From assembly GCF_009662475.1 (NCBI RefSeq), contig NZ_CP045571.1, forward strand, positions 804,501 through 868,500: a DNA stretch of 64,000 bases, written 5' to 3'. Below, piece by piece: positions 22,137-47,769 of this stretch. Numbering within the stretch: the first letter of the stretch is position 1; every line of letters starts with the position of its first letter. Below the pieces are notes generated by a model. That model was not told where the DNA came from. It saw nothing but the letters and a program-made list of their open reading frames with translations, and searched no databases. This DNA comes from Acidithiobacillus thiooxidans ATCC 19377. GTDB taxonomy: Bacteria; Pseudomonadota; Gammaproteobacteria; Acidithiobacillales; Acidithiobacillaceae. The position numbers and the translations under genes are program-made.

Positions 22137-25100
22137 GGCACTGACACCTGCACAGATTGGGCGGTCATGGCGGCTTTCTGCGCCCGATATTCTGCAATGG
22201 AGAGATTGCGGAGCTGCGAGGATCGCCCGCCCTCGTTATGAACGAATCCCACACTGGAAACAAAGGGTTCGATAATGTGGATTTTCTGCAGCGGAGTCAC
22301 GATCAATAGTTGCAGGTTGAGTTGCTGGAATAATTTCAGGCCATATTGGGCAGATTCATCTGAACCACGCCCGAAGGCCTCATCAATGACCACAAAACGG
22401 AAAGAACGGGAACGCACTGCGCCCCATTCCAGGCCAAACTGATAGGCCAAACTGGCTGCCAGGATGGTATAGGCCAGTTTCTCCTTTTGCCCGCCTGACT
22501 TACCGCCGGAGTCTGAGTAATGCTCGTGCTCGCTGTTATCTTCCCGCCAGCGCTCACTGGCAGCGAAGAGGAACCAGTTACGTACATCGGTAACCTTGCT
22601 GGTCCAGCGCCGATCCTGCTCCGACAAACCCTCTCGGCCCCGGAAGCGGTCGATGATGGTTTTGACCTGCAGGAACTTGGCCTCGGAATACTGGTTGTCG
22701 TCCGAACCGGTGACGGTACCCTCGGTGCAAGCGCGTAATTCCTGCTGGAAATCTCGGATTTCTGTATCGGGACTGGGCTGTGATTCAAGCACGATGTAAC
22801 GGCCGGGATTGTAGTCGATCTCACTCAGCGATTGGTTGATATGGGCAATACGTTCCTTGATGGTTTCGCGCTCGCGGGCCAATTGGGCATTGAAATTGGC
22901 AATTTCGTTGATGGTGTTGACATTGAGCAGTTCTTTGAAGCGCGTCACAAAACGCGGCAGGTCGTCACGATTCAACTGGGTCAGCAGGTTTTCATATTCA
23001 AAAGCCGCCTCAAGACTCGCATCAATCTCGGCGGTTTCGAGCTTGAACTGCTCTTTGAAGGAAACCATGGCCTTGATGATTTTCTCAGCAAGGTTTGCCA
23101 GTCGCCTTTGCTCGGCATCGAGTCGGTCCTGCAGCCATTTGCGTAGATCCTGCTCACGATTATCACAAGACTCAATGCTGAGTTGGTGCTCACCCAGCGC
23201 TTCAGAACGCATGGCTTCGAGTTTTGCCTGCAAGCTGTCGTCGATGCTCGTATCATGAAGCAGTGCTTCGGTTTGCTGACGCAACGCTTGCGCGTCGGCG
23301 CGCCGCTGCTCTACTTTGGCGCGCTTTTCGCGGGCCGCCTGCAGCGCTTCCCCCATCTCTTTTTGCGTTTTCAGCAGGGTATGCAGGTTGTCGTTGAGTT
23401 GTTTGAGCACATCCGACGCGGATTCCAGCCGCTGGCGCTCATCCACCAGCTGGGCGATCTCGGTGGCGACGCTGGCCCAATCCAGTTCATCAAAGATGGT
23501 GAATTCCTCAAGACGGGTCAGGGCATCAAGACGATCATTGAGCACATCACGCTCTTTCTGGATGGACGCAATCTGACTGCCAATTTCAGCCAGTTGCGCC
23601 TCAAGCTGGCGACGTCTGGCTTCCAGTGCGGCGATCTTCGCAGTATTGCTCCAGCCCAGCACGTAGCGGCTGCGATCATCAATGCGGTGACGGTCGTCCT
23701 TTTCATGCCGGCCACTTGGGTCTTTGATATGACCTGCGCGAGTGATGGCACGTGTTTCACGGCGAAACTGTTCTTGCGTACTACAACAGGCCATATCAAA
23801 GCGATGGGCCAGTTCGCGTTCCAGCCAGTCATAATAGGGCGAGTCGGGCTTGATGGTCAGTTTGCGGACCAGGGAGTCCCGGTGCAGGTCCGGCAGTTCA
23901 GCGGTCTTGCGTGCGCGCACCTGAAAGTACACCAGACGGCCACGCAGATGGGCCGCATCCACCCACTCTGCCACTGCCTTGTAATGTACATCCGGCACCA
24001 GCAGCGCCAGACCGAAGCCGCGTAACAAGCGTTCGGCTGCGCCTTCCCAATCGCGTTCATCGTCACGCACCTGGATCAACTCACCGATGAAAGGCATGTC
24101 ATCCACATTCAAATTCAAAGCCGCACTTAGGGCATCACGAATCTGGATCTGTTGATCATCGATGTTGCTGCGCCGCCGTTTGAGGCTGTCGATTTCCAGG
24201 CTTTGTTGGGCATGCTCCTGCTTGCCCTGGCGCATGGTTACGCCATATTCAGTGAGGGTGTTTTGCAGGTCGGCAGCGCTGTTGCGGGTTTCCTCCCGCC
24301 AGCTTTGATACTTGCCCCGTTGTACGGCGAAGTCGGCGGCCTCGTTGGCGGGTGCTTCGCCCAGTACGGCGGTCAGTTCCGCATAACGGGCAGCCTTGGC
24401 TTTGCGTACATCCCGCGACTTCTCTTTCTTGTGGATTTCGCTGGACAGCCATTCCAGTCGATCACCACCATTGGCATTAATAGCCTGCTTCAGTTCATCT
24501 ACTTGCTGACCATGCGCTTCATGTAACGCGCTCAGTTTTTGTATCTGGGCATCCACCCGATCCCAGTCTTCTGTCAGTGAACTCAGGCGTTTGTCGATCA
24601 GCCCGAGTTTCAGACCAGCAAAGTGGGGGCGCAGACCTTCCCGGCAGGCCCGCAAGCTGTCAGCCTCAGCCTGCATGGCCTTGTGGCGAACGCAGTCTGC
24701 GATCAGCGGCGTGAGTAGCTCCACCTGTTGGCGGGTTTTCAGTACAGCCTGATGGGCCTGGTTGAGATCATCAAAGTGACTGATCAAGTCTTGTAGGCGC
24801 TGGTCAACTGCAAAGGGTTCCAGCATATGGCTACGGACGAAGTCCGTCAGGTTACCTACCGATTTCATCGATACGGTCTGGTGGAACAATTCCAGCGCTT
24901 GATCGTTTTCAATACCGAAACGTCGACGAAACCATGCCGCATAGGGAGGAAAGCTGTCCTGTAATTCTGCGCCCTTGGCGCGCAGATTTCTGCGCAATTG
25001 AGCGATGTCCGATCCGAATTGGGCGAAGTCGGCGGTAATGGACAGCGCCCCTTCCGCGCCCAGAAAAAACCGTGCGGGCTGCCCCTGGGCGTCTTTCATC

Positions 25101-25525
25101 CAGAACACCTGAGCCAGTGTCACCGTCTGGGCATAGCCGGCATTCTGGAATACGCCGAGAATGACGGAGTAGCTATTTTGGTCCCGCAGGCTCACTGGTT
25201 TGGCTGCTCCGGTAATCTCATTGCGCTCGGATTTGTAATGCCCAAGCACATAAGAGCGCAGGGTGCGCTCCTTGTTGTCTGCTCCGGCTGCCTTGTTGTA
25301 GGCGACCCGGTTGGCAGGTACCAGCAGGGTAGTAATGGCATCCACCAAGGTGGATTTACCCGAACCGATATCACCGGTCAGCAGTCCGTTTTTGCCATCC
25401 AGTTGCAGCGTCCAGACCCGGCTGTCAAAGGTGCCCCAGTTAAACACTTCCAGCCTGGTCAGCCGGAATCCTGACAGGGTGTCATCAGCACAGAAGTCGA
25501 GGTTCAATAATTGTGGATCATTCAT
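22133..25525 (-). CDS. jetC: Wadjet SMC-like ATPase JetC
   Basis: A 1130-aa SMC/MukB-like ATPase. Walker A is [18 protein letters not shown] near residue 45. Long coiled coils span about residues 300-950 with a hinge-like region between. The C-terminal head has [13 protein letters not shown] (ABC signature) and Walker [14 protein letters not shown]. It forms the DNA-extruding motor of the Wadjet complex with JetA and JetB. The ATG at 25525 follows GGGAAGAAATTG and overlaps the jetB stop by 8 nt, which fits translational coupling. The open frame continues upstream into jetB. Confidence 0.95.
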
Positions 25526-26189
25526 GATCAATTTCTTCCCTGCTGCCGGTCTTGCCAGCCAGTTGCCCCTGGTAACTGGCCAGACGTTCATCCAGTTCGG
25601 CCAGCCATTGGGCGTCTACAAAGGCCTTCAGAATGCGCCGCACCTCATAATTGGCTGGTCCAGCGGTAGCGCCACCAGCCGTTTTGAGTTTTTGTAGAAA
25701 GCCCAGTTCGACGACTTTGTTGATGGTGGTTTCAATCTGGTCAATCAGCCTGGCTTCATTCGGGCCATCGGGCAGAAATACCCGCACCAGATCCACGATG
25801 TCATCGCGGGACAGGACCAGTCGCGTATCACCCCCACCAGCATCAAATTCGGCCAGTTTTTTGCGCAGCAAGGCAAGCAGTAAACTTACGGCAAATGATA
25901 ATGGTCGACGGGCCACCAGACGTGGTAAACGCGGGGAGGGATCATCCTCAGTGGGTTCGGGGCGGCTTTTCAGGAAGGCATAGCCTTCAGCCTCATCCAG
26001 TACCAGGTCGAGATTGAGCACTGCCACATAATCACGCACCCGCACTTGTAGCTGCAACAGTGCGGCCCATTGGCGCTCGTCATTTTCACGGTAAAGCACG
26101 CCTTTGAGCAGGCCAATCAACAGCACCGACAAGTCAGCAGGCGGAGCAGCCGGTGTAGCCTGGGTTATGTTCAAATATTCCACTTCCAT
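25518..26189 (-). CDS. jetB: Wadjet subunit JetB (DUF4194, MukE-like)
   Basis: A 223-aa DUF4194 protein that corresponds to MukE/ScpB, linking the kleisin-like JetA to the JetC ATPase. Recognisable segments are [20 protein letters not shown] and a winged-helix-like block with [26 protein letters not shown]. It lies between jetA (20 bp away) and jetC (8-nt overlap). Confidence 0.92.
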
Positions 26190-26208
26190 TTCTTGCCTCG
26201 ATGCTTGT

Positions 26209-27672
26209 TCAGCGCATGAAAATCACGCGGGGTAGTCGCGCGCTGCGGATAAGTGTTTGCCCTTCCATATCCGCTGTCTGCCAGTGGATGGATTCAGTCG
26301 TGTCTTCATCCACTACGCTGCTGAACACTTCACTGCCCAATTGCAGGTAGGCAATTAATTCAGCCAGCCCTTGTTGCAAGGGCTGATTAGTGACCAGTTC
26401 GCGCAAGCTGATCTGGGTGTGGTCTTGCAAAGTGTTGCGAATATGGCGGGTTAGCCGAGCCTTATCGACGACGACCTGTTCAAAAAGTCTGGAGGGATCA
26501 ATGTTTTCATCGCCAGCCTGGAGGATGATTTCGGTAATCATTGGTTTGCTGGCCGGAGTGAACAGTGGCCGTTCCATCGCCAGCACAACATCCGCGCTGG
26601 CTGCAGCCATTTCCATCACCGTGCCGGTCGGAGCGATGCTGCGCAGCGCCAGCGCCTTGCTTTCAATACCATGCAAAATATCCATGATGCGGCGGTTTTC
26701 CAGCCAGGCCTGGTCATCCAGAAAGCGGCGTAATTGCTGGGACAAGGCGGCGACGGTACGCTGGGTCTGTTCACCAGCTTCCATCCAGTCGTAGTGTACC
26801 CGGCGAGTCCGGGTGTCCGGGTTCAGTTCCGCCACAGCGGGTAGTGCCAGTACCTGATCCAGCAGATTGGTCAATTCTTCCTGCCGACGGCTGGATAACA
26901 GAAAATCCCAAAGGGCACGGAAACTCTTGCCCTGGTCGGAATCACCAATAGCATCGCGCTCACCCATGATGTCTTCCAGCAACGCCCCTTTGCTGCCTTC
27001 CCATAGCGCAATGCGCTCACGCACGCGGCGATCCAACTGGCGGAAATTGTGCTCCACCTCGCGAAAATCGGTGAGTAACTCGCGTGCGCCCTGCATGAAT
27101 TGCTGAAAACGGTCCTTCACCGCTGTGTCATCCAGCAGTGATACCTCGCCCGCAAGCACCTTTGCAATCTCGGCATCAATGGCGTCACGCTTTTTGTGCA
27201 ACTCGGCAATGCGTTTGGCAGGGTCGGCTTCGCTGCCCTCGCTCATCTGCTTGAGCAGGTCAAAGAGGGTAAGCAAGCGCGATTCGGTTCCGACAAATTG
27301 CCGTTCACTGAGTTGCGTCAACCAGGCAATAGCCTTTTCGGTAGCGGGGGTCAGATCAAACTGCGCCTCGTCCGTGCCCATGCGGTAGAACTTGCGCAGC
27401 CAGCCCTTATCGGGTTCTGCCCAGTCGTTCAGGTATTCCAGTGCAGGCTTGGGGAATGCAGCCTCACCCAGATGCAGGCGTAAGGCATACAACTCATCTT
27501 CCAGTGCTTCGGCCAAATCCGCCGCTGCCATCACCCGCTCATTGGGCACTACGAATACCCGATGCAAAAAGCTTGCTATCAGCGGTGCATGATCTGAACG
27601 CAACAGGCGCCATGCGGGGTGATGGTTACGCAGGACGTCAAGGGTGGCGTAGTCGAGAGTTACATGGTTCAT
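26209..27672 (-). CDS. jetA: Wadjet kleisin-like subunit JetA (DUF3375)
   Basis: A 487-aa DUF3375 protein, the MukF/kleisin counterpart of the complex. The N-terminus LDVLRNHHPAWRLLRSDHAP and the central RQEELTNLLDQVLALPAV match the family; the middle is mostly helical. First gene of the complete type I Wadjet operon, in the order A-B-C-D on the - strand. Its start lies 43 bp downstream of the vapC stop. Wadjet restricts circular plasmids, so its position beside an IS-rich mobile region is noteworthy. Confidence 0.93.
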   Translation of the reverse strand: MNHVTLDYATLDVLRNHHPAWRLLRSDHAPLIASFLHRVFVVPNERVMAAADLAEALEDELYALRLHLGEAAFPKPALEYLNDWAEPDKGWLRKFYRMGTDEAQFDLTPATEKAIAWLTQLSERQFVGTESRLLTLFDLLKQMSEGSEADPAKRIAELHKKRDAIDAEIAKVLAGEVSLLDDTAVKDRFQQFMQGARELLTDFREVEHNFRQLDRRVRERIALWEGSKGALLEDIMGERDAIGDSDQGKSFRALWDFLLSSRRQEELTNLLDQVLALPAVAELNPDTRTRRVHYDWMEAGEQTQRTVAALSQQLRRFLDDQAWLENRRIMDILHGIESKALALRSIAPTGTVMEMAAASADVVLAMERPLFTPASKPMITEIILQAGDENIDPSRLFEQVVVDKARLTRHIRNTLQDHTQISLRELVTNQPLQQGLAELIAYLQLGSEVFSSVVDEDTTESIHWQTADMEGQTLIRSARLPRVIFMR

Positions 27673-27714: not shown

Positions 27715-28146
27715 TTATTTCAGAATTTTTTGCTTGCCCGTCCCGGATGCCGGGCTTACCAGACTGACCCCAGAGAAATACGTGGAGTATCGCTGCCTGT
27801 CACGGGTCAGCACGGGGCAGCCAGCCACGGCAGCATGGGCGCCGATGAAGAAGTCGGCAGGCACGTTGTTTTTCTTTCCTCCCTGCCGGCGGTAGCGCAC
27901 GAATGCCTTGCCAGCCAGAAACAGCGCGGGCCGGGGAATCTCGATTACCGCCAGGCCTAGATCATCGACAGTGCGATCCAGGGCTTCGACCGTCGAGAAC
28001 GTCAACGACAGTTCGGCATAGATGATCGGATTGATGACCAGGCGATGAATTTTGGACTGCGCCCGTAGCTGGCCGATGGACCAGTCCGCCCATTCCGGAT
28101 CGTCCTCCAGAACGTCGACCAGCACATTGGTATCGACCAGCAGCAT
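27715..28146 (-). CDS. vapC: PIN-domain toxin VapC
   Basis: A 143-aa PIN-domain ribonuclease. The acidic active-site residues are visible: LLVDTNVLVDVL at the N-terminus, the middle glutamate in YAELS, and DFFIGAHAAVAG with VLTRDRQRY near the C-terminus. VapC toxins cut tRNA or rRNA and are held in check by their antitoxin. It follows vapB by only 3 bp on the same strand, a typical TA operon, and precedes jetA. Confidence 0.93.
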   Translation of the reverse strand: MLLVDTNVLVDVLEDDPEWADWSIGQLRAQSKIHRLVINPIIYAELSLTFSTVEALDRTVDDLGLAVIEIPRPALFLAGKAFVRYRRQGGKKNNVPADFFIGAHAAVAGCPVLTRDRQRYSTYFSGVSLVSPASGTGKQKILK

Positions 28147-28713: not shown

Positions 28714-30128
28714 GAGCTATAGTCAAATCTGGTGTATGAGCATTTTCTGACATAGATCAGGCGGCGGTCTGTTGATCATCCGGCAGGGTGAGGTTAGCCG
28801 GTAAGCCATCGATAAATTTCACCCCTGCAAAAAGCTGCAGGACTTTCTCTGGAGCATAAATCCCAATCCAGCGTTTTTCAGCCTGCTGCAGCATCTTGAA
28901 ACCCAATCCCAGAAAGCTGCTGCGTGATACACAGTTCTTCGTCCGGGTAGTCCGGTGGCGTACCGTAGCGAAGGTGGACTCAATGGCATTGGTGGTCCGG
29001 ATATGCCGCCAGTGTTCGGCCGGAAAATCATAGAAAGCGAGCAATTCAGCCCGATCTTTTTCCAGTTTAGCCACGGCCTTGGGATACTTTGCCTGGTAAT
29101 TGCGCACAAACACGTCCAGTGCTTTTTCCGCAGCCTGGCGATTGGCGGCCATCCAGATTTCCTGCAACGCTGCCTTGGCTTTGCTCTGTTGGGCTTTGGG
29201 AAGTTCGTTGAGAATGTTGGCGGTCTTATGCACCCAGCAGCGTTGCTGACCAGTTTCGGGATAGGCTTCATCCAGTGCGGCCCAAAACCCCATGGCACCA
29301 TCCCCAATGGCGAGCAAAGGGGCCGTCTCCAGACCGCGCGCCTGCAGGTCACGCAGGATCTCCAGCCAGGAAGCTTTGGATTCGCGCAGGCCGTCACTGA
29401 CACTGACCAGCTCTTTCTTGCCCTCTGCCGTCACGCCGATAATCACCAGCAGGCAGATACGCGGATCCTCCTCCGCACGGAGGTTCGTATAAATACCGTC
29501 TACCCACCAGTAAGCATAGCGCTTTCCCTGTAGGGAGCGGTGTTGCCAATGGGCATACTCTTGCGCCCACTCCGCCTTGAGACGTCCCAACACCGCAGGT
29601 GAAAGTCCCTTGGCCTCATCACCCAGCAAAATGGAAAGGGCTTCCTGCATGTGGCCGGAAGACACCCCATGCAGATAGAGCCAAGGTACTGTAGCGGCTA
29701 CCGTTCGTGATTTGCGTACATACGGAGGCGCCAGTACCGAATTGAATTTGATCCCCGATCCTGAGCGGTCCCGCACCTTGGGTACTTTGACGGGTACCGG
29801 ACCCAGAGCGGTCAGGATCTCGCGCTCCGGCAGATGCCCATTACGCACGACCGCCTGACGCCCATCAACCATCCGCACCGTCGCAAATTCTTCCAGCAAT
29901 ACCGCCACCTCTGCCTCTATGGCCTGCTCAATCAGAGAGCGTGCCGCGCGTCGAAGTATCCCTTCAATGCCCAGACCCAACTCTCCCATCCCACCTGCTA
30001 TTACGGTATTCTTTTCCACGGCGTACTCCTTATGTTGCTCTTTGAGTCGGAAACCCTTTGTAGCAACAGTACGCCACCTCATTCAAGCCAGTTGTAACGC
30101 GCCCGTACACCACTTTCGAGCATAGCTC
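28714..30128 (-). mobile_element. IS256-family insertion sequence, copy 1
   Basis: A 1415-bp element. Terminal inverted repeats begin GAGCTATAGTCAAATCTGG and GAGCTATGCTCGAAAGTGG (18 of the first 23 bp match). It is flanked by the 9-bp target duplication TGCATAATC at 28705-28713 and 30129-30137. It inserted in non-coding DNA. The transposase is identical in amino acid sequence to copy 3. Confidence 0.95.
28757..30019 (-). CDS. IS256-family transposase, copy 1
   Basis: Mutator-type DDE transposase, about 420 aa from the GTG at 30019, which is preceded by AAGGAG; an in-frame ATG at 30082 would give 441 aa. Catalytic positions are visible: D in YWWVDGIYTNLR, D in LLAIGDGAMGFW and E in TTNAIESTFATVR. 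The C-HH-type motif region QRCWVHKTANIL is also present. It encodes Leu in EILTALG, Ser in SVSDG and Thr in LETAPLL. Confidence 0.95.
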   Translation of the reverse strand: MEKNTVIAGGMGELGLGIEGILRRAARSLIEQAIEAEVAVLLEEFATVRMVDGRQAVVRNGHLPEREILTALGPVPVKVPKVRDRSGSGIKFNSVLAPPYVRKSRTVAATVPWLYLHGVSSGHMQEALSILLGDEAKGLSPAVLGRLKAEWAQEYAHWQHRSLQGKRYAYWWVDGIYTNLRAEEDPRICLLVIIGVTAEGKKELVSVSDGLRESKASWLEILRDLQARGLETAPLLAIGDGAMGFWAALDEAYPETGQQRCWVHKTANILNELPKAQQSKAKAALQEIWMAANRQAAEKALDVFVRNYQAKYPKAVAKLEKDRAELLAFYDFPAEHWRHIRTTNAIESTFATVRHRTTRTKNCVSRSSFLGLGFKMLQQAEKRWIGIYAPEKVLQLFAGVKFIDGLPANLTLPDDQQTAA

Positions 30129-30317
30129 TGCATAATCGGGTGCACACCGAGAAAAGAACAGGCAAAAAAAGAGGTATTCGGGGGCCCCTTATCTCGGCTT
30201 GGTTCAGCTCAGTCAGGCAGGAAGAACACCTTCCGGTCTTACATCTACGGTTTAGACGAGCGGCAGACTTACTCCGGGGTTTCGAGGCGGTTGCCGAGCA
30301 CGCAGAAATGGTGCGTC

Positions 30318-31334: not shown

Positions 31335-31534
31335 GGGAAGGGAGTAAATGGAGAGTACACGGGCTGGTTTTCAGACGATGGCCGCGCAATTCGGGGTATG
31401 CTCTGGATTATCGGACGGTGAAGTGGCGGACCGTTGACGGTAAGCTGCTGCTGGACTTAGGCAAAATAGCCGTTTTCTTCTTATACCCCAATAGTACCAC
31501 GGTCATTTCAGGCGACTGCTCACCGGCAAGTCAT

Positions 31535-32949
31535 GAGCTATAGTCAAATCTGGTGTATGAGCATTTTCTGACATAGATCAGGCGGCGGTCTGTTGATCAT
31601 CCGGCAGGGTGAGGTTAGCCGGTAAGCCATCGATAAATTTCACCCCTGCAAAAAGCTGCAGGACTTTCTCTGGAGCATAAATCCCAATCCAGCGTTTTTC
31701 AGCCTGCTGCAGCATCTTGAAACCCAATCCCAGAAAGCTGCTGCGTGATACACAGTTCTTCGTCCGGGTAGTCCGGTGGCGTACCGTAGCGAAGGTGGAC
31801 TCAATGGCATTGGTGGTCCGGATATGCCGCCAGTGTTCGGCTGGAAAATCATAGAAAGCGAGCAATTCAGCCCGATCTTTTTCCAGTTTAGCCACGGCCT
31901 TGGGATACTTTGCCTGGTAATTGCGCACAAACACGTCCAGTGCTTTTTCCGCAGCCTGGCGATTGGCGGCCATCCAGATTTCCTGCAACGCTGCCTTGGC
32001 TTTGCTCTGTTGGGCTTTGGGAAGTTCGTTGAGAATGTTGGCGGTCTTATGCACCCAGCAGCGTTGCTGACCAGTTTCGGGATAGGCTTCATCCAGTGCG
32101 GCCCAAAACCCCATGGCACCATCCCCAATGGCGAGCAAAGGGGCCGCCTCCAGACCGCGCGCCTGCAGGTCACGCAGGATCTCCAGCCAGGAAGCTTTGG
32201 ATTCGCGCAGGCCGTCACCGACACTGACCAGCTCTTTCTTGCCCTCTGCCGTCACGCCGATAATCACCAGCAGGCAGATACGCGGATCCTCCTCCGCACG
32301 GAGGTTCGTATAAATACCGTCTACCCACCAGTAAGCATAGCGCTTTCCCTGTAGGGAGCGGTGTTGCCAATGGGCATACTCTTGCGCCCACTCCGCCTTG
32401 AGACGTCCCAACACCGCAGGTGAAAGTCCCTTGGCCTCATCACCCAGCAAAATGGAAAGGGCTTCCTGCATGTGGCCGGAAGACACCCCATGCAGATAGA
32501 GCCAAGGTACTGTAGCGGCTACCGTTCGTGATTTGCGTACATACGGAGGCGCCAGTACCGAATTGAATTTGATCCCCGATCCTGAGCGGTCCCGCACCTT
32601 GGGTACTTTGACGGGTACCGGACCCAGAGCGGTCATGATCTCGCGCTCCGGCAGATGCCCATTACGCACGACCGCCTGACGCCCATCAACCATCCGCACT
32701 GTCGCAAATTCTTCCAGCAATACCGCCACCTCTGCCTCTATGGCCTGCTCAATCAGAGAGCGTGCCGCGCGTCGAAGTATCCCTTCAATGCCCAGACCCA
32801 ACTCTCCCATCCCACCTGCTATTACGGTATTCTTTTCCACGGCGTACTCCTTATGTTGCTCTTTGAGTCGGAAACCCTTTGTAGCAACAGTACGCCACCT
32901 CATTCAAGCCAGTTGTAACGCGCCCGTACACCACTTTCGAGCATAGCTC
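31535..32949 (-). mobile_element. IS256-family insertion sequence, copy 2
   Basis: 1415 bp, same ends as copy 1, with target duplication GCAAGTCAT at 31526-31534 and 32950-32958. It lies just downstream of the nuclease gene at 32974, leaving that gene intact at its 3' end. Confidence 0.95.
31578..32840 (-). CDS. IS256-family transposase, copy 2
   Basis: Same DDE transposase as copy 1, from the GTG at 32840 (ATG alternative at 32903). It is the most diverged of the five: Met in EIMTALG, Gly in VGDGLRES (Ser in all others) and Ala in LEAAPLL. The catalytic D, D and E segments are unchanged, so it is probably active. Confidence 0.95.
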   Translation of the reverse strand: MEKNTVIAGGMGELGLGIEGILRRAARSLIEQAIEAEVAVLLEEFATVRMVDGRQAVVRNGHLPEREIMTALGPVPVKVPKVRDRSGSGIKFNSVLAPPYVRKSRTVAATVPWLYLHGVSSGHMQEALSILLGDEAKGLSPAVLGRLKAEWAQEYAHWQHRSLQGKRYAYWWVDGIYTNLRAEEDPRICLLVIIGVTAEGKKELVSVGDGLRESKASWLEILRDLQARGLEAAPLLAIGDGAMGFWAALDEAYPETGQQRCWVHKTANILNELPKAQQSKAKAALQEIWMAANRQAAEKALDVFVRNYQAKYPKAVAKLEKDRAELLAFYDFPAEHWRHIRTTNAIESTFATVRHRTTRTKNCVSRSSFLGLGFKMLQQAEKRWIGIYAPEKVLQLFAGVKFIDGLPANLTLPDDQQTAA

Positions 32950-32973
32950 GCAAGTCATCGGCCATTGCCGACG

Positions 32974-35070
32974 TTAAGAAGGCTGACCTTGGCTGCGCAT
33001 CTTCTGATGGTGGTAGTGCTCCAGCAGCACATTGAAGGTCGAGAACGTCATGGGAATCGATAGCCTCGTCCTCACCTCAGTAAGCGATTGCACCCCTTCC
33101 AATAGGACGTCGAGCTGGGCCACGCTCGCGGAAGCGGCATTGAGCGGATGGGCGTTGATGTGTTGGCCTGCCGCCTCAAGCAGGCGTGTCTCCTCCTGAA
33201 ACAAGCGCAGATTTGTGTTGAATTCCGCGACTTGCCTTTTTTTCGTATAGCCGGGATCGCAGGTGAATTGAGCCGACAACAATGCGTTATAGACGTTCCT
33301 AAGCATCGACCGATCTTGGAGCGCGCCGTGATCCAACAGGGTCGCGGTGAGGCGCGTGATGTGCCGGTCTCGAAGCTCAAGCCTTGTCCCATCGTGGAAA
33401 TGTATCGAGCCCGCACTCCGCAAAATCCGCTCATGCCTGAGAGCCTGCGCTTGAGGCGCAAACAAACCACTCGCAAAATCGAGTAACGCATCGCCCTGCA
33501 TGCCGGTCATGGCGCCCCTGGTCAGCGCCTTAGCTTTGCACTCGACAAGGATGATATTTTCCTCATCCTCGAAAACGAGATCGCACTCGCCGGCACCTTG
33601 TTCACCCAGATCATAGAGCGCGTTCTCGAAGCTCGGTTGAAAGCCGTGTTTGGCGAATAGGTATTTCGTCAGCCGCTCTGCTGCATTGCCTCTCAGGCTA
33701 GCGATTTCCTGGTCGGTCTTGATGATTTTCCAAGCTGTGAATGTGGCTTCGAACAGGGCTGGGCCCAATACCGAGGCCGCCGGCAGAACGACGCTGTCTT
33801 CCTTGAGCAAAATGAGTGGCTTGAAGATTACGTCAGGACCCGCAGCTCCAAAGGGAGAGCGATAGTATTTGTTGGCCTCTCCCTCTCTATACGCGAAGAA
33901 CTGTAACATGGATTTGAAAAGCCCCAGGTCGAAGCCGGTTGCAACCAAAGCGGCGATCGGTACGACCTGAGTGCCCGGTCTGGCATGAGCTTTGAGAACC
34001 CGAGCCAGCTGCACCGCATCCGCAACATTCCAGCCGAGCCGTTGTTTCATGCAGACATCGAAGCTTTCGCCGAAAAAAACGGTGAGAAACTCGGGCGTGA
34101 AGCTGAGATGCCACTGACGAAGAGAGAAGCAGTGGTCGTAGTGAGCAACCTCTCGCAGTCCATCCTCCAAGGCTTGGGCATTCAAACCCAGAAAAGCAAA
34201 TTGTGAATAGGGTTCGAGATCGAGCATCGCCACGAGATCACGCGCCAGGCTGACGGCCTTGTCCCAGAAGCGCTTGGGATTGTGGACATTGGTTCCTTGG
34301 GCCGGTAGCTTGACAGCAATGTTATAGAGCAGTCCAATCGGCAACTCCGGCGGTCGGTCGCCAAACCCTATGACGTATTTCCTGCCAAATAAAATTTGCT
34401 CGTACTCGTAGGGGTGGACATTAAGGGCAACCTGCATGATGTTCGAGAGCGCATTGAGGCAGCCTAGGACACGGAGGCATTTCTGAATTTGGCCGACGAT
34501 GTTCTCGGTAACCTCATCCCTGATCTGGTATCGCCCTGAGCGAATTGAAAAGTCGTAGCCGAGCCGTTTGATCCGAGTCGCTGCGCCCGCAACTGCTGTC
34601 GTGCGAGCATTCTGGAATGGAAATCGCTTGAGGACCGTGAAGGCGCGTCCGATGAGCATGGCTTCCAGCCAGGCCGACTCATGGTCGAGTGTCCTCACGA
34701 AGGCGGTGACTTGCGGAGAAGGGGGTGCGCCTGGTTGAACGGGCCCGGACGGAATCCTCTTTCCGTCGGGCTGAGCTATCCCGGGCAGGCAAGCGGCAAT
34801 GTTGTTGAGTGCCTCGGCGATCGGTATGCTCACCATATCCAGCACATTAGCCAAAAAAAAATGATTGGCTAGGGCGCGCACGGTGCCAACCGTTTGACCC
34901 GTATTGTCCAATATGATCAATAAATCGAAGAGGTGATCCGATGCTTGTTGAAGGCTCTGATAGGCTTCCAAAGCCTCATTCGCGGCGGCTTCATCTGCCA
35001 TTGGCACGGCTGTGACGGAATCTTGAAAAATTTCTCTTAGCTTTTGTGCCCGATCGTCCAGGTCCTGCAA
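32974..35070 (-). CDS. Large protein with a PD-(D/E)XK nuclease-like motif, candidate defence gene
   Basis: A 698-aa protein I cannot name. At about residues 480-530 it has AAERLTKYLFAKHG, then GAGECDLVFEDE and NIILVECKAKAL. This is a D-x(n)-E-x-K arrangement typical of PD-(D/E)XK nucleases such as Mrr- or NERD-like proteins. The N-terminal two-thirds is helical and of unknown role. There is no signal peptide or clear membrane segment. The start is TTG at 35070 with AAGGAG 6 nt upstream; a stop lies about 16 codons further up, so the protein is close to full length. It is a single gene between two mobile elements, a setting common for anti-phage or anti-plasmid nucleases, but function is inferred only. 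Confidence 0.65.
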   Translation of the reverse strand: MQDLDDRAQKLREIFQDSVTAVPMADEAAANEALEAYQSLQQASDHLFDLLIILDNTGQTVGTVRALANHFFLANVLDMVSIPIAEALNNIAACLPGIAQPDGKRIPSGPVQPGAPPSPQVTAFVRTLDHESAWLEAMLIGRAFTVLKRFPFQNARTTAVAGAATRIKRLGYDFSIRSGRYQIRDEVTENIVGQIQKCLRVLGCLNALSNIMQVALNVHPYEYEQILFGRKYVIGFGDRPPELPIGLLYNIAVKLPAQGTNVHNPKRFWDKAVSLARDLVAMLDLEPYSQFAFLGLNAQALEDGLREVAHYDHCFSLRQWHLSFTPEFLTVFFGESFDVCMKQRLGWNVADAVQLARVLKAHARPGTQVVPIAALVATGFDLGLFKSMLQFFAYREGEANKYYRSPFGAAGPDVIFKPLILLKEDSVVLPAASVLGPALFEATFTAWKIIKTDQEIASLRGNAAERLTKYLFAKHGFQPSFENALYDLGEQGAGECDLVFEDEENIILVECKAKALTRGAMTGMQGDALLDFASGLFAPQAQALRHERILRSAGSIHFHDGTRLELRDRHITRLTATLLDHGALQDRSMLRNVYNALLSAQFTCDPGYTKKRQVAEFNTNLRLFQEETRLLEAAGQHINAHPLNAASASVAQLDVLLEGVQSLTEVRTRLSIPMTFSTFNVLLEHYHHQKMRSQGQPS

Positions 35071-35303
35071 GCGGGTCTCCTTGAGGCGGGATGTTTCATG
35101 ATGGGCGGTGCCAGAAATTTAAACGGGCACCCCACAGTGGCTATAGCAAAGCATTTTGAATCAGCTACTCAGTATCAAAGGCTTTCCGGCGGATTACTAT
35201 GTGCAGCAGTCCTTCGGATGGTTGCAGCCAAGGGAATGATTAGCGACCGACCGTCCCTGATCAATAATAGTCTTTCCCAGGCTATCTGGGAATGTCAGCC
35301 TTG

Positions 35304-36704
35304 TCCAATATGAAATGAGTCTGAAGGGTGGAACGTGTTTCTAACATGAAATGCGTCTGGAGTGAGCTGCAACGGAATTGGGTTCCGTTCATGATGGAGG
35401 GATGAAAGCCATCATGAAACTTGAAGAGTTAAAAACGATTGAACAACTCGAGACCTTTCTGTCCGGTACCCAGGCGGTGGCCTTTTCGGTCATGGGCGAC
35501 AAGGACACTTGCTACCGCTGGATTCAGGGGGAACTGGTCAAGTTCCGGTATGTGACGTTGCCCCGCCCCGCCAGAGGGGTGGTGATCCGCTATCTGATGA
35601 AGGTCAGTGGTTACTCCCGTCAGCAGATCACCCGGCTGATTGCCCAGTATCGCCAACACGGTCGGTTACAGCGCCGCCAGCGCACGGTGGCTGGTTTCCA
35701 GCACCAGTACACCGCCGAGGATATCCGCCTGCTGGCGGCGATGGATGAGCGCCACGACACGCCCTGCGGTCAGGCCATCAAGAAGCTGTGTGAACGGGCC
35801 TGCACGGTCTTCGGTCAGGCCGAGTACGAGCGGCTGGCCGCGATCTCCGTGAGCCACCTGTATAACCTGAGAAAATCCACCACCTACACCTGCCAGCGCT
35901 GCCACTTTGCAAAGACCCGACCCAAAGCATCAACCATCGGCGAGCGGCGCAAACCCCAGCCCAACGGCCAGCCCGGCTATATCCGCATCGACACGGTCCA
36001 TCAAGGCGACCTGGACAAACAGAAAGGCGTGTATCACATCAACGCGGTGGATGAACACACCCAGTTCGAGATCGTCGTGAGCGTCGAGAAAATTAGCGAG
36101 CACCACCTTATTCCAGCTCTGGAGCAGCTGTTGGACAGTTTCCCCTTTACCGTGCTCGGCTTCCACTCCGACAACGGCTCGGAATACATCAACAGACGGG
36201 TCGCTGGGCTGCTGGAGAAACTGCGCATCGAGTTCACTAAGTCCCGCTCACGTCATTCCAATGACAACGCCCTGGCCGAAAGCAAAAACGGCACTGTGGT
36301 GAGAAAGCTGTTCGGGTACAGCCATATTCCTCAACGCTGGGCGGCACTGATCAACGCCTTCAACCAACAGCACCTCAATCCCTATATCAACTTCCACCGT
36401 CCCTGCTTCTTCCCGGAAACCCACACTGATGCCAAAGGCAAACAACGTAAACTCTACCCCTATGAGAACATGATGACGCCTTATGACAAGCTCAAATCAT
36501 TGCCCCAGGCAGAAAGCTATTTGAAACCCGGCGTAACCTTTGAAATACTCGACCAGCTCGCTTACCAGATCAGCGACAACCAGGCGGCGGACCAGCTCCA
36601 GAAGGCCCGTCAAAGACTATTCAAAACGATCCATGGACGGCCACCGAAAACCGGTTGACAGGGCATTCTCTACAACCACTTCCCAGACTCATTTATGGAT
36701 TGGA
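35304..36704 (+). mobile_element. Insertion sequence with integrase-core transposase
   Basis: About 1.4 kb. Inverted ends are visible as TCCAATATGAAATGAGTCTG at 35304 and, on the other strand, TCCAATCCATAAATGAGTCT ending at 36704. A further internal direct copy of the end motif (ACATGAAATGCGTCTGGAG) lies at 35344. No target duplication could be identified, so the exact ends are uncertain. Confidence 0.7.
35402..36658 (+). CDS. Integrase-core (rve) DDE transposase
   Basis: About 418 aa with an N-terminal helix-turn-helix (YLMKVSGYSRQQITRLIAQY) and an integrase core. Catalytic candidates are D in IRIDTVHQGD, D in LGFHSDNGSEY and E in NALAESKNGTVVRK. The family looks like IS481/ISNCY-type elements; I cannot give the exact name. 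The start is ATG at 35402 or 35414 after GATGGAGG. The frame is complete, so the element may be functional. Confidence 0.85.
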   Translation: MKAIMKLEELKTIEQLETFLSGTQAVAFSVMGDKDTCYRWIQGELVKFRYVTLPRPARGVVIRYLMKVSGYSRQQITRLIAQYRQHGRLQRRQRTVAGFQHQYTAEDIRLLAAMDERHDTPCGQAIKKLCERACTVFGQAEYERLAAISVSHLYNLRKSTTYTCQRCHFAKTRPKASTIGERRKPQPNGQPGYIRIDTVHQGDLDKQKGVYHINAVDEHTQFEIVVSVEKISEHHLIPALEQLLDSFPFTVLGFHSDNGSEYINRRVAGLLEKLRIEFTKSRSRHSNDNALAESKNGTVVRKLFGYSHIPQRWAALINAFNQQHLNPYINFHRPCFFPETHTDAKGKQRKLYPYENMMTPYDKLKSLPQAESYLKPGVTFEILDQLAYQISDNQAADQLQKARQRLFKTIHGRPPKTG

Positions 36705-37345: not shown

Positions 37346-39079
37346 TTAAGCTGCACCTACTTTGCCTGTAGCCTCCACGTCCGCCCCAGGGAGCTGGATT
37401 TGTTCGACGGTCCATCCTTTGGTTCGGTCCGGAGAAGCCGTCAGACGAATTCGTATGGTCACCGCCGTTGTGTCAATTATCGTTGAACCAGTTTCTGTCG
37501 CAACCAATGCCCCCGGACAAATTTCGACCTCAAACAGAGACACAAATCTGCTTGTTTTCCCCAGCGCTATGATCTTGGGGAATATCCTGGAAAGCACTGC
37601 TCGAATTCGCGCGGGGTCGAGTCTGCTATCAAATAGCTGGGTAGCCGCGTTTCTCGGATTAAAATTCAATTGTTTTGCGATTACCACCTTGTCTATCTGG
37701 TCCTCCTCCTCCCGGATTCTCTTGTACTGAATTTCAAGCATTTTCCACGATCCATACAAGCTGGTAATGCGTTTTTCAAGATTGTCTTCGTGTCCAATGG
37801 TTTTCAACAAATCCAGTGCCCTGGAATAAGTTATCTCCGCTTGGTCACACTCTTGCTTGAGTTTACTAAGCTCTTGTAGTCTGTTGCCCGACAACTTTGC
37901 TCGCAGCCGATCCCGGAACTCTTTCTGTATCTGAGGATTTTCCAGGATCTGATTCAGGACGAATTTGAGCATGGCCTCAATTCCCGCACGCGCCGTGTGT
38001 CCCACACCTACGCTTTTGAGGTGATGTCCGACTGTTCCCCGCTGCGCGCAACTCGCACAATAAAATGCCTGTACAAATTTCCCGTCTTTTCCTTTTCCAG
38101 ACAATGACAGCTTCGTCCCGCATTGCGAGCAGGTAATCAGTCCCGAAAAAGGATTATTACCACCCCCGTACATAGCTTTTGATCCTGTGCTCCGATTGCA
38201 AGCCGTCCAGGTTTCATCGTCGACCATCCGCAGGTTCGGTCTATCAAAAAGTAAAATCGCTGGACCCTGATTTCTCCCAGCAGTTGCTGCTGATGATGAA
38301 AGTTCGCTATCCCTGCCGACGAAAATCCCTCGGAAAATCTGATTTGATAATAAGCGGTTGACAGTTCCGGGGCGCCAGAACGCGATCGAGTCCGGTTTTT
38401 TTGCCGCGCGGGGAGGCGGGATCCGCTGGCGATTTAGTGTCGCGCAAATCTGGTTTAGACTGCGCCCTGACTTTCGCAGATTAAATATGGTCTTGACTAC
38501 ATTGGCCTGCTCCGGGTCAATGATCCAACGCATTCCCGTATGCTGTTCTCCAGGCATGGCGGGTTGCCCCTCTTGCCCCACTCTCATGGTGTTATAACCA
38601 TATGGCGGTGAAGCAACGTCATAACCCCGCTCAAGCTGCCCACGCATTCCTCTTTTTACCCGGAATGCTGTTTCACGGAGAAAATGTTCAGCAATAACCG
38701 CTGTTATTTCAACGCCGAAGCGCCAGTTCGGATTCAGAGAGTCTTTCCCGTCGACCGTGAGAAGCCGCACACCCGTTTTCGTGATCCGGTCATTGAGTCG
38801 GCTGATTTCGGCTATGCTTCTGCTTAGCCGGCTTAACTCGTCTACAATCAAACATTGAAATTGCCCGGCCATCCAGGCCGCCAGCAATTGTGCGTACCCG
38901 ACTCTTTGTGCTGTTTTAGCTGAACTCCCAGAAATAGCGGAGTCCGAAAAAATAAGGTTGTCAGGAACAGTATAATTGTGACGTTCGGCAAACTCTTTAC
39001 AGCGCCGAATCTGGTCGTCGATAGAGGTTTCCCTCTGGTTATCCGTACTGTAACGGGCATATATAGCTGCAGTTGGCAT
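37346..39079 (-). CDS. Large serine recombinase 1
   Basis: A 577-aa site-specific recombinase of the large serine (phiC31-like) class. The catalytic domain opens with AAIYARYSTDNQ, where the Ser is the nucleophile, then SIDDQIRRCKEFA and the DELSRLSRSIAEI helix. A recombinase domain follows at about 190-300, a zinc ribbon (CSQCGTKLSLSG and FYCASC) at 330-370, and a long coiled coil. The ATG at 39079 has GGAGGCAAC just upstream; the frame is open to 39181 but that part is untranslated leader. A conserved promoter/operator motif lies at 39161-39180. It is divergent from the IS-interrupted regulator at 39358 and similar in layout to recombinase 2. Confidence 0.93.
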   Translation of the reverse strand: MPTAAIYARYSTDNQRETSIDDQIRRCKEFAERHNYTVPDNLIFSDSAISGSSAKTAQRVGYAQLLAAWMAGQFQCLIVDELSRLSRSIAEISRLNDRITKTGVRLLTVDGKDSLNPNWRFGVEITAVIAEHFLRETAFRVKRGMRGQLERGYDVASPPYGYNTMRVGQEGQPAMPGEQHTGMRWIIDPEQANVVKTIFNLRKSGRSLNQICATLNRQRIPPPRAAKKPDSIAFWRPGTVNRLLSNQIFRGIFVGRDSELSSSAATAGRNQGPAILLFDRPNLRMVDDETWTACNRSTGSKAMYGGGNNPFSGLITCSQCGTKLSLSGKGKDGKFVQAFYCASCAQRGTVGHHLKSVGVGHTARAGIEAMLKFVLNQILENPQIQKEFRDRLRAKLSGNRLQELSKLKQECDQAEITYSRALDLLKTIGHEDNLEKRITSLYGSWKMLEIQYKRIREEEDQIDKVVIAKQLNFNPRNAATQLFDSRLDPARIRAVLSRIFPKIIALGKTSRFVSLFEVEICPGALVATETGSTIIDTTAVTIRIRLTASPDRTKGWTVEQIQLPGADVEATGKVGAA

Positions 39080-39160
39080 GTTGCCTCCAAATGTTGTGTC
39101 GTGAGTGAATGCGGGGGGCGATGGATGCAAAGAGGCACCCCTGTTATTGCCACCCAAGAA

Positions 39161-39180
39161 ATATAGGAACCGCAATCGCA
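39161..39180 (-). promoter_or_regulatory. Conserved promoter/operator motif, copy A (upstream of recombinase 1)
   Basis: On the + strand it reads ATATAGGAACCGCAATCGCA. Three other copies occur at 43341, 44894 and 59194, all in the same orientation and each upstream of a - strand gene. Read on the - strand, the end of the motif runs into TATATT, a good -10 element. The predicted start site is about 75 nt before the recombinase ATG. The conserved part beyond the -10 is probably the binding site of the element's regulator. Confidence 0.7.
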
Positions 39181-39231
39181 AAATGGATAAGTGATCGATC
39201 CAAGATTTTGTAGGTCCTGATCAATATAGCG

Positions 39232-39357: not shown

Positions 39358-39585
39358 ATGAGGATTAAAAGTAATGACGGTGATCGAGCAATCTCAGAGA
39401 ACGATGTGGGGGGCCAGGCCATCGGCCCTGGCGCAGAAGGAACAGACTTTGCGTATCCGGGTTTCAAAGATCTGTTTGCCGAACTCGCGGCCGGGAATGG
39501 AAAAACATTGGTCCGGTGGCTGCGCTCCGAAGCGCAGCGGAGCTATGCTCGAAAGTGGTGTACGGGCGCGTTACAACTGGCTTGA
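39358..39585 (+). pseudogene. HTH regulator 1, 5' part (interrupted by IS256 copy 3)
   Basis: The ATG at 39358 follows CCGGAGGAAGC, a strong ribosome-binding site. The frame encodes about 60 genuine residues up to SEAQR, then reads into the IS until a stop at 39585. Removing the IS and one copy of its 9-bp duplication joins this part in frame to 40964-41402, giving a 206-aa protein. The restored protein has an XRE-like helix-turn-helix (VQAQDLPKALNISEGDYQKL) and a C-terminal domain similar to regulator 2. It was divergent to recombinase 1, so it probably controlled it. Confidence 0.8.
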
Positions 39586-40954
39586 ATGAGGTGGCGTACT
39601 GTTGCTACAAAGGGTTTCCGACTCAAAGAGCAACATAAGGAGTACGCCGTGGAAAAGAATACCGTAATAGCAGGTGGGATGGGAGAGTTGGGTCTGGGCA
39701 TTGAAGGGATACTTCGACGCGCGGCACGCTCTCTGATTGAGCAGGCCATAGAGGCAGAGGTGGCGGTATTGCTGGAAGAATTTGCGACGGTGCGGATGGT
39801 TGATGGGCGTCAGGCGGTCGTGCGTAATGGGCATCTGCCGGAGCGCGAGATCCTGACCGCTCTGGGTCCGGTACCCGTCAAAGTACCCAAGGTGCGGGAC
39901 CGCTCAGGATCGGGGATCAAATTCAATTCGGTACTGGCGCCTCCGTATGTACGCAAATCACGAACGGTAGCCGCTACAGTACCTTGGCTCTATCTGCATG
40001 GGGTGTCTTCCGGCCACATGCAGGAAGCCCTTTCCATTTTGCTGGGTGATGAGGCCAAGGGACTTTCACCTGCGGTGTTGGGACGTCTCAAGGCGGAGTG
40101 GGCGCAAGAGTATGCCCATTGGCAACACCGCTCCCTACAGGGAAAGCGCTATGCTTACTGGTGGGTAGACGGTATTTATACGAACCTCCGTGCGGAGGAG
40201 GATCCGCGTATCTGCCTGCTGGTGATTATCGGCGTGACGGCAGAGGGCAAGAAAGAGCTGGTCAGTGTCAGTGACGGCCTGCGCGAATCCAAAGCTTCCT
40301 GGCTGGAGATCCTGCGTGACCTGCAGGCGCGCGGTCTGGAGACGGCCCCTTTGCTCGCCATTGGGGATGGTGCCATGGGGTTTTGGGCCGCACTGGATGA
40401 AGCCTATCCCGAAACTGGTCAGCAACGCTGCTGGGTGCATAAGACCGCCAACATTCTCAACGAACTTCCCAAAGCCCAACAGAGCAAAGCCAAGGCAGCG
40501 TTGCAGGAAATCTGGATGGCCGCCAATCGCCAGGCTGCGGAAAAAGCACTGGACGTGTTTGTGCGCAATTACCAGGCAAAGTATCCCAAGGCCGTGGCTA
40601 AACTGGAAAAAGATCGGGCTGAATTGCTCGCTTTCTATGATTTTCCGGCCGAACACTGGCGGCATATCCGGACCACCAATGCCATTGAGTCCACCTTCGC
40701 TACGGTACGCCACCGGACTACCCGGACGAAGAACTGTGTATCACGCAGCAGCTTTCTGGGATTGGGTTTCAAGATGCTGCAGCAGGCTGAAAAACGCTGG
40801 ATTGGGATTTATGCTCCAGAGAAAGTCCTGCAGCTTTTTGCAGGGGTGAAATTTATCGATGGCTTACCGGCTAACCTCACCCTGCCGGATGATCAACAGA
40901 CCGCCGCCTGATCTATGTCAGAAAATGCTCATACACCAGATTTGACTATAGCTC
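39540..40954 (+). mobile_element. IS256-family insertion sequence, copy 3
   Basis: 1415 bp, the only copy in + orientation, with target duplication AGCGCAGCG at 39531-39539 and 40955-40963. It disrupts HTH regulator 1. At the diagnostic sites it matches copy 1, so the two are probably the latest pair of donor and copy. Confidence 0.95.
39649..40911 (+). CDS. IS256-family transposase, copy 3
   Basis: Identical in amino acid sequence to copy 1 (Leu in EILTALG, Ser in SVSDG, Thr in LETAPLL). The start is the GTG at 39649 behind AAGGAG; the ATG at 39586 is the longer alternative. Intact. Confidence 0.95.
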   Translation: MEKNTVIAGGMGELGLGIEGILRRAARSLIEQAIEAEVAVLLEEFATVRMVDGRQAVVRNGHLPEREILTALGPVPVKVPKVRDRSGSGIKFNSVLAPPYVRKSRTVAATVPWLYLHGVSSGHMQEALSILLGDEAKGLSPAVLGRLKAEWAQEYAHWQHRSLQGKRYAYWWVDGIYTNLRAEEDPRICLLVIIGVTAEGKKELVSVSDGLRESKASWLEILRDLQARGLETAPLLAIGDGAMGFWAALDEAYPETGQQRCWVHKTANILNELPKAQQSKAKAALQEIWMAANRQAAEKALDVFVRNYQAKYPKAVAKLEKDRAELLAFYDFPAEHWRHIRTTNAIESTFATVRHRTTRTKNCVSRSSFLGLGFKMLQQAEKRWIGIYAPEKVLQLFAGVKFIDGLPANLTLPDDQQTAA

Positions 40955-41491: not shown

Positions 41492-43174
41492 TTACGCGAT
41501 GATCTCACACAGCCGGTCTATCTTCCAGGTCGTGGGCCTTGTATGGCTGGCTTGGACAGTATATTGGGCTGTGATCACATGCTCCTCTATCTCCTCGGAA
41601 TTTGTAGCTGTAGCAACAGCCACTCCGATATCCATGTGGATTTCAAACAGACAAGCCTTTTTGGGGGTCCGACCGCAAAACTCAATCACGGGAAACAGCT
41701 TCTTCAAAATGGGCCGTAACCGGGCAAGGTGCTGGGTATCCTGCAGCAATTGATGGATAATTTCCTCCGTGGTGATTTCCTGTTGTTTGCGGATGTTATC
41801 CGGATCCGTCACGAGGATCTGTTGTTCAAGTGCGCGGCACTCCTCTTTCATCGTCGTGAGGCACGTAAAAAGCCTGGAAATGCTATCTACCAGCGTGTCG
41901 TCCCCACTGCTGATGTATTGAGCCAATATTCCCTGATAAGCTTTTTCCTGAATGCGGATTTCTTTCCGTAGTCTGGTCACTGCCTGCATATCGTCCGTTT
42001 TTAACTTATCCGCTAATCTTTCACGGTATGCTATTAATACATCAGGGTCAGCTACGACCTGCTTTATGACCGCCCCCAAAAGTTCCAGGACCCCGTCGAC
42101 TCCAGCACCGCTTGTTTGTGCCGGAAGATCGGGGCTAACGGCTTTGCGGCTCGCACAAGCAGAGCAATAAAGCACTCTGGATGTATGGCTGGGAGAGGTT
42201 AACGATAAATTACCCCCGCAGATCCCACAAGTGACAAGGCCCGCGAGAAGGTGGTCCGATCGCGTTTTTTGGCCTGTGTACCCTTTAACCTTGTTGCATT
42301 GGTGCCACAGCGAGTCATCAACCAGCCGCAGGTGCGGTCGAGAGAATGTTTGAGCTTTGTTGTCGGCAATCAACCCTGCTTTCTTTGAGGAATATCGATA
42401 AGAGGCGCTGCCACGGTATACAAAATCTCCCCGGTAAATCGGATTCCTGATGATGTTGCTTACTGTGGAGCCGAGCCAGAGAGATTTGCTTCCATCTCTG
42501 GGACGCGGAGGCAATACTTTCTGCTGATTCAGCTTTCGTGCAATTTTGGAAAGCGTTGTTCCCGACGCTCTTTGACCATAAATATTTTTAACAACATCAG
42601 CTTCAACAGGGCTTACTTCCCACAACGTCCCGGCGACTTCTTCCTCGTTTCTTGCAGGTTGTCCGGCAGCATCTACTCTCACTCGACGATAACCATAAGC
42701 CGGGGCTGCAAGCATGTAGCCCCGTTCTAGCTGTCCGACCATGCCACGCACAGTCAAAAATCGCACATTATCGATCTCCTCTTGCGCTAGTATTCCGCCG
42801 AGTCCAACCAAGATTTCCCATTCTGCTGCTTGGGAATCGATCCCATCGACAGTTATGAGGCGTACCTGGTGTTCTCGGATCAGATCCTTCAGACCGAATA
42901 CCTGAGAACTGTTCCTGCTCAAACGAGAAATCTCATCCACTACTAGTAGATTGATTTTTTTTGATTTAATAGCATTTATCAGGTCGTTATACCCAGCGCG
43001 CTGTGACTGAACACTGGCAGAGCCAGAGATTGCTTTGTCCTGGAAAACGTATTCTTTAGAGACTAAAAGTCCTTTGCTTTTGATGGTGTTACGACATCGT
43101 CTGATTTGATCTTCGATCGAAGTTGCTGCTTGGTCAGCGGTGGAATACCTTGCGTAAATGCCGATGTTGTACAT
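41492..43174 (-). CDS. Large serine recombinase 2
   Basis: A 560-aa large serine recombinase, a diverged relative of recombinase 1. Catalytic start IGIYARYSTADQ, then TSIEDQIRRCRNTI and DEISRLSRNSSQVF. The recombinase domain lies at about 180-290 and a zinc ribbon (CGICGGNLSLTS, LYCSACAS) at 320-360, followed by a coiled coil. The ATG at 43174 follows GGAGGAAGC; the longer frame to 43387 is leader. It has the same divergent arrangement with a regulator as recombinase 1 and carries a copy of the conserved promoter motif at 43341. Two different recombinases suggest two elements in tandem or a stepwise integration system. Confidence 0.93.
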   Translation of the reverse strand: MYNIGIYARYSTADQAATSIEDQIRRCRNTIKSKGLLVSKEYVFQDKAISGSASVQSQRAGYNDLINAIKSKKINLLVVDEISRLSRNSSQVFGLKDLIREHQVRLITVDGIDSQAAEWEILVGLGGILAQEEIDNVRFLTVRGMVGQLERGYMLAAPAYGYRRVRVDAAGQPARNEEEVAGTLWEVSPVEADVVKNIYGQRASGTTLSKIARKLNQQKVLPPRPRDGSKSLWLGSTVSNIIRNPIYRGDFVYRGSASYRYSSKKAGLIADNKAQTFSRPHLRLVDDSLWHQCNKVKGYTGQKTRSDHLLAGLVTCGICGGNLSLTSPSHTSRVLYCSACASRKAVSPDLPAQTSGAGVDGVLELLGAVIKQVVADPDVLIAYRERLADKLKTDDMQAVTRLRKEIRIQEKAYQGILAQYISSGDDTLVDSISRLFTCLTTMKEECRALEQQILVTDPDNIRKQQEITTEEIIHQLLQDTQHLARLRPILKKLFPVIEFCGRTPKKACLFEIHMDIGVAVATATNSEEIEEHVITAQYTVQASHTRPTTWKIDRLCEIIA

Positions 43175-43266: not shown

Positions 43267-43340
43267 GGTTTTGTCCTATTAAATTAACAACTGATTGAAT
43301 TATATGGCGTACTGCCATCTCTCTGTTTGTCCTACACAGA

Positions 43341-47762: not shown

Positions 47763-47769
47763 TTTTCGA

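Follow-up and report, generated by a model that had tools for sequence, protein, structure and literature searches.

The window, a stretch of 64,000 nucleotides from Acidithiobacillus thiooxidans ATCC 19377 (NZ_CP045571.1, positions 804,501 to 868,500), contains on its minus strand a 698-aa reading frame whose extent and parts are given in Table 1. The ORF listing returned exactly the frame named in the original prediction, which had given no strand, and the plus strand across the same bases has many stop codons. The codon equivalent to the window's TTG start is ATG in all seven close homologues, and all seven also keep the AAGGA of the ribosome-binding-like site. The frame is more than a chance one, because it has seven full-length homologues, because dN/dS between the window copy and each of them is 0.19-0.28, and because the catalytic residues are invariant in 14 of 14 aligned proteins. 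The dN/dS values further indicate that the window copy comes from a lineage kept by selection.

The gene was also said to stand alone between mobile elements, and it does. On the downstream side 24 bases separate its stop codon from an IS256-type element, and 307 bases upstream of the gene is an ORF (35378-36658) with an rve domain, the transposase/integrase core. The IS256-type element is present in five copies in the window (28714-30131, 31535-32949, 39537-40954, and the ORFs at 45278-46603 and 49227-50552), and the three copies compared over their length are 100% alike, to the tool's rounding. Relatives of the element were found on five plasmid records, all from Acidithiobacillus, and Acidithiobacillus ferrooxidans plasmids carry IS256-type copies 99% identical to it. 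PADLOC models identified a complete type I Wadjet system, JetABCD, on the minus strand at 20919-27672, which is 5.3 kb from the nuclease gene with two IS copies in between. Adjoining the Wadjet system are a PIN-domain-like ORF, judged by eye (27715-28146), and an ORF with a weak match to ShosT (20284-20853; E 6.5e-7).

Table 1. Features of the nuclease gene and its flanks (window coordinates unless another locus is named)
Feature	Position	Strand	Basis or remark
Putative single-gene PD-(D/E)XK nuclease, 698 aa	32974..35070	-	TTG start at 35070, stop codon 32974-32976; seven full-length homologues at 81-87% identity, dN/dS 0.19-0.28
AAGGAGA, ribosome-binding-site-like	35076..35082	-	6-12 bases upstream of start
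N-terminal part, codons 1-410	33841..35070	-	no significant relative among the libraries searched; invariant family residues and null library searches
Short pre-nuclease segment, codons 411-457	33700..33840	-	invariant P418; 14-protein alignment; weak match to GapS1-type segment
PD-(D/E)XK nuclease core, codons 458-550, borders approximate	33421..33699	-	G461, E465, D497, E510-x-K512, K514, Q542; alignment and profile comparison
Codon of presumed catalytic D497	33580..33582	-	invariant in 14 of 14 proteins
E510-C511-K512 codons (E-x-K motif)	33535..33543	-	E510 and K512 invariant in 14 of 14 proteins
Conserved C-terminal extension, codons 551-698	32977..33420	-	R569, S649 and Q652 invariant
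IS256-type element, 1415 bp	31535..32949	-	9-bp target duplication ATGACTTGC at 31526-31534 and 32950-32958; flanks the nuclease gene, no part of it
Inverted repeat of locus L001, imperfect, 33 bp	9781-9813 and about 12121-12153 of L001

The window protein was aligned with 13 relatives. Invariant in all 14 proteins are W134, G171, G203, R230, P244, D312, Q319, L389, N400 and P406 in the N-terminal half, and P418, G461, E465, Y486, D497, E510, K512, K514, T517, G523, Q542, L550, R569, S649 and Q652 in the C-terminal half. Residues 494-514 carry the GECDLVFEDE...ILVECKAK signature from which a PD-(D/E)XK nuclease had been predicted, and an E...D...E-x-K pattern is that of the PD-(D/E)XK fold. 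In a profile-profile comparison, the C-terminal half was matched by a YraN-type profile with 97.7% probability (E 2e-12, 66 columns); this profile was built from 10 proteins, 10 of the 27 candidate YraN loci having yielded a usable ORF. The core fold, as assigned by profile, and the catalytic D...(D/E)-x-K are both present, and the predicted assignment of the C-terminal half as a PD-(D/E)XK nuclease core is supported. The catalytic set is complete, with no sign of a dead enzyme in the window protein sequence, and homologues lacking the D and E-x-K residues, which the original prediction had named as evidence against itself, were not seen among the 14 proteins. Structure predictions for the window protein reached a pLDDT of 36 from the single sequence and 34 with nine close sequences; both were unusable, because there were too few diverse sequences for the alignment.

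YraN/UPF0102 (PF02021, TIGR00252), the best profile match, resembles the window protein in that its nuclease core has the E, D and E-x-K residues. The YraN models, however, are 118-126 positions long, whereas in the window protein about 450 additional residues precede the core and 150 follow it. The YraN model scored 15.5 bits against the window protein, under its cut-off of 81, and a small protein rather than one of 698 aa is expected, which places the window protein outside YraN. The profile match does raise the question of a DNA-repair or recombination enzyme, YraN-like or Holliday-junction-resolvase-like, that is carried as an accessory gene. Such a role would suit four of the seven close homologues (L004-L007), whose neighbours appear by eye to be ordinary chromosomal genes. 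Nevertheless, the YraN match is confined to 66 columns of the nuclease core, the close loci share no conserved neighbourhood, and the occurrence of the family is very patchy for a housekeeping role, so that we consider a repair enzyme quite improbable.

The N-terminal part had been described as long and matching nothing known, and library searches agree. For the window protein there was no significant match in Pfam (best E 0.17), PADLOC (2023 version; best E 0.036) or NCBIfam (June 2026 version; best E 0.014), and none in PHROGs at E 0.01. Sequences in the PDB also gave no significant match, the top one for the family profile being 3fov, a UPF0102 protein (YraN), at E 0.25. About 410 residues are accordingly free of significant matches in all five collections. 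Several weak matches were considered and set aside as too weak to rely on: PhoU at residues 8-77 (E 0.17 for the window protein, 0.0087 for one member), thrombomodulin-like THBD (three members of 14, best E 7e-4), Cas4_II (five of 14, best E 0.033), and the Csx1 and CARF-nuclease models (single members only). The PDC-M29B model also weakly matched three of 14 members (best E 3.4e-4).

A restriction enzyme that acts without a methylase, like the Type IV enzymes, would recognise modified or foreign DNA with its N-terminus and cut it with its C-terminus, and the cell would survive. The gene is a standalone one with no recurring neighbour such as a methylase, its predicted fold is a DNA-cleaving one, relatives are often carried on plasmids, and one of the 14 members weakly matches the Pfam model for DpnII (E 2.7e-4). 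DNA-reader domains are represented in Pfam, yet at E up to 0.1 none of the 14 members matched one. We regard this mode of action as unlikely; it would in any case be a sub-case of defence and not its opposite.

The NCBIfam model NF047931 ('antiphage_GapS1') describes GapS1, which is said to be the GAPS1 of Mahata et al. 2024. Against the window protein it scored 12.2 bits (E 0.062), below the curated cut-off of 320 bits, and it weakly matched five of the 14 family members at E up to 0.1, the best at 0.0019. Two GapS1-type proteins were found in 229 genomes, one over the NF047931 cut-off and one under it, and five plasmid records carried GapS1-like proteins at 22-24% identity, of which three were fetched; the two from genomes and the three from plasmids made up a five-protein GapS1-type profile. 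Over the full length this profile matched the family profile at 92.3% (E 5.5e-7), compared with 0.1-0.3% for five shuffled full-length profiles, all GapS1/family E-values being those of a single pairwise comparison. When the halves were compared by hhalign, the C-terminal halves proved homologous (94.4%, E 9.4e-8, 146 columns), whereas the N-terminal halves, at 0.8% (E 0.07) against 0.0-0.2% for five shuffled controls, showed no detectable relation. The segment of codons 411-457 alone weakly matched the same segment of the GapS1-type proteins (20%, E 0.001), and GapS1 against the YraN profile reached only 8.6%. GapS1 is thus like the window protein in having a nuclease-like C-terminal half that follows a similar short segment, but it is unlike it in length (455 model positions versus 698 residues) and in its N-terminal half. 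Because the C-terminal halves match and the N-terminal halves do not, the family, judged by sequence comparison, shares its nuclease half with GapS1 but is no GapS1 member. GapS1 is named as a defence system in PMC12774648 and is described by a meeting report as protecting Klebsiella pneumoniae against many phages (PMC12908700).

The close homologues come from Rhodanobacter, Burkholderia ambifaria, Paraburkholderia, Limnobacter, Uliginosibacterium and two proteobacterial MAGs. One further close relative is on an IMG/VR contig (L009), the surroundings of which are those of the Paraburkholderia locus. Distant relatives were found on 15 plasmid records from Bradyrhizobium, Rhizobium, Xanthomonas, Methylobacter, Alteromonas and Shewanella; 13 of these plasmids are predicted to be conjugative, and the six plasmid relatives included in the alignment share 19-36% identity with the window protein. 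No relatives were found among 50,697 phage records or, by DNA search, in 5,426 E. coli genomes. Among viral contigs, an alignment scan returned only the known L009, and four distant members used as queries returned none.

Genome samples gave the same scattered picture. Among 188 genomes of the host's relatives, four passed E 0.001, the host included. In a sample of the class 55 of 369 genomes passed the same threshold, with long matches only in the host and in genome G126; the other 53 matches covered only some 50-85 profile positions, in the nuclease core, and were set aside as probably YraN-type. In a sample of the phylum three of 398 genomes passed E 1e-12: the host, genome G821 with a long relative, and genome G800 with a C-terminal fragment. 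This last is a remnant 84% identical in sequence (L087:9110-9397), adjoining an ORF that looks by eye to be AbiEii-type. In a member of the host's family (G022), the relative is split by an ORF that looks by eye like a transposase (L086:7732-10999), and a member of the host's genus (G004) retains a 39-residue remnant-like piece. The scattered occurrence and the remnants look like frequent gain and loss, which is usual for defence genes.

DNA similarity among the close loci is limited to the gene and at most about 180 bp upstream and about 110 bp downstream, and the sites differ, so that a unit of up to 2.4 kb appears to have landed in different places. Such a unit might be a minimal self-mobile element, in which the nuclease aids its own insertion or homing. 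Imperfect inverted repeats do flank the gene in L001 (33 bp; equalled in 0 of 300 shuffles), L002 (18 bp; 1 of 300) and L004 (22 bp; 3 of 300), these frequencies being uncorrected for the several windows tried. Clear inverted repeats were, however, lacking in L003, L005 (25 of 300 shuffles at best), L006, L007 and the window; the left and right ends of the common unit differ between loci; and each of the eight genomes has one copy of the gene. Nor was an empty site with both flanks found in searches with the left flanks of L002, L004 and L007, both flanks of L003 (phage records) and the right flank of L003 (genomes); L001, L005 and L006 were left out of these searches. Self-mobility of this kind is very improbable, and we give equally little credence to its extension, that the sole protein of a 2.4-kb minimal mobile element is both an immune effector and a part of the insertion machinery, a selfish nuclease that excludes rivals. 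Two other routes of insertion were examined. The sequence after the stop codon does not fit an integron attC, as judged by eye against the consensus. Of the eight loci, L004 alone had a tRNA according to ARAGORN, at a distance of 2.3 kb, and the window had none. Near the upstream end of the unit in L007 there is a short dispersed REP-like repeat (L007:9645-9683), several copies of which are present in its own and a related genome.

When the seven close loci, the IMG/VR contig and the window are compared, no ORF within about 10 kb of the gene is found at more than one locus, with two exceptions: L003 and L009 represent the same region, and related HU/IHF-like genes are present in both L004 and L006. 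Clear mobile-element neighbours were found for only two of the seven close homologues. In L001 a gene of the tyrosine-integrase type is nearby, and in L003, as in L009, the gene is in a region classed as viral by IMG/VR, about 400 bp from a tRNA-Sec-like sequence identified by BLAST matches; parts of the L003 region resemble Burkholderia phages (eight records, covering at most 13% of the query). A consistent housekeeping context of homologues, which would have counted against a defence role, was not seen, though four of the seven close loci look chromosomal by eye. Since these four have ordinary-looking surroundings, it is the distant relatives and the window, not the close homologues, that supply the association with defence.

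Eight distant loci (L014, L015, L018, L019, L020, L084, L085 and L086) were assessed within 10 kb of the gene, the proteins for single PADLOC scans being chosen because they were defence-like in appearance. Left out of this set were L016, a near copy of L015; L017, whose plasmid carries an injected effector; and the fragments L087, L088 and L094. Five of the eight loci have PADLOC-confirmed defence proteins. L014 has HmaB and HmaC, L015 a type II DNA methyltransferase, and L018 the GajA and GajB proteins of Gabija. In L020 a Dsr1-like protein, annotated in the record as SIR2 family, is encoded 97 bp upstream on the same strand; in L084 the gene for a SIR2-type pAgo-associated protein (Aga_SIR2-PNTD1-PNTD2) starts 207 bp downstream, also on the same strand, and is followed by pAgo. 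The three loci with no PADLOC-confirmed defence gene are L019, where one protein was scanned, and L085 and L086, where none was scanned singly. Single scans gave no match for the protein from L019 and for one protein each from L014 and L015. An annotated AbiEii-type toxin gene is 3.0 kb from the gene in L019, and L085 is among what appear by eye to be sugar-polymer genes. In the Xanthomonas locus L017, outside the PADLOC scans, UvrD-helicase, ThiF and Mov34 proteins are annotated.

For comparison, eight further regions of the respective replicons or genomes, or of closely related ones, were taken, the Rhizobium one being from the plasmid of L016 and not that of L015. At least one of the 87 test proteins matched each of 231 PADLOC families, versus 139 families matched by at least one of the 118 control proteins; these are family totals and not per-locus counts. 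Helicase models predominate among the 25 control families listed. One control region also has an annotated AbiE pair, and another has VapBC pairs. Because the comparison between test and control regions is not clean, the case for defence leans on the named systems, and our confidence in it is slightly lowered.

The original prediction of a probable defence gene is supported by context and distribution: several distant relatives adjoin defence genes, and the occurrence of the family is patchy and decaying. The close loci mostly lack defence company, and the control was not decisive. In weighing the reading we counted in its favour the nuclease profile and invariant residues, purifying selection, the scattered distribution, the defence neighbours, the Wadjet system of the window, the relation to the C-terminal half of GapS1, the viral region of L003 and L009, and the conjugative plasmids; against it we counted, besides the close loci, the three distant loci with no confirmed defence gene and the control, that YraN, the closest profile match, is no defence family. 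With moderate confidence, we propose that the gene is a single-gene, horizontally moving system directed against phages or mobile elements. Single-gene nuclease defence proteins in general resemble the window protein, in that they too combine one protein, a large unmatched N-terminus and a nuclease domain with mobile and partly defence-rich surroundings; the window protein itself has no significant match to a PADLOC, NCBIfam, Pfam or PHROGs model. By likeness to other single-protein defence nucleases, the protein probably couples a sensing or restraining N-terminus to a DNA-cutting domain. The N-terminal 410 or so residues would probably sense infection or keep the enzyme silent, and once triggered the C-terminal PD-(D/E)XK domain would cut DNA, either that of the invader or, in an abortive response, that of the cell itself. 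The domain would presumably be metal-dependent, as is usual for the PD-(D/E)XK fold. We infer DNA as the substrate, the N-terminus as the sensor, and protection from phages or plasmids as the outcome.

If this proposal is true, the genes make up an unnamed single-protein immunity family of alpha-, beta- and gammaproteobacteria, whose N-terminal region resembles none of the models in the searched libraries. The nuclease module common to GapS1 would then be joined to different N-terminal parts, which should help in finding further defence genes, and a one-gene system of 2.1 kb is easily cloned and tested. Among the titles and abstract openings of mostly open literature on GAPS1 and the Gamma-Mobile-Trio, on PDDEXK single-gene defence, on YraN and defence, and on defence-island nucleases, no description of the family was found.

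Two other groups of genes in the window deserve mention. On the upstream side of the nuclease gene are two large-serine-recombinase ORFs with Resolvase and Recombinase domains (37346-39181 and 41492-43387), possibly of integrative-element origin. At 46923-51386 are two glycosyltransferase-type genes and a glycosyl hydrolase family 16 gene, with IS256 copies between and beside them; these genes possibly have a role in surface polysaccharide.
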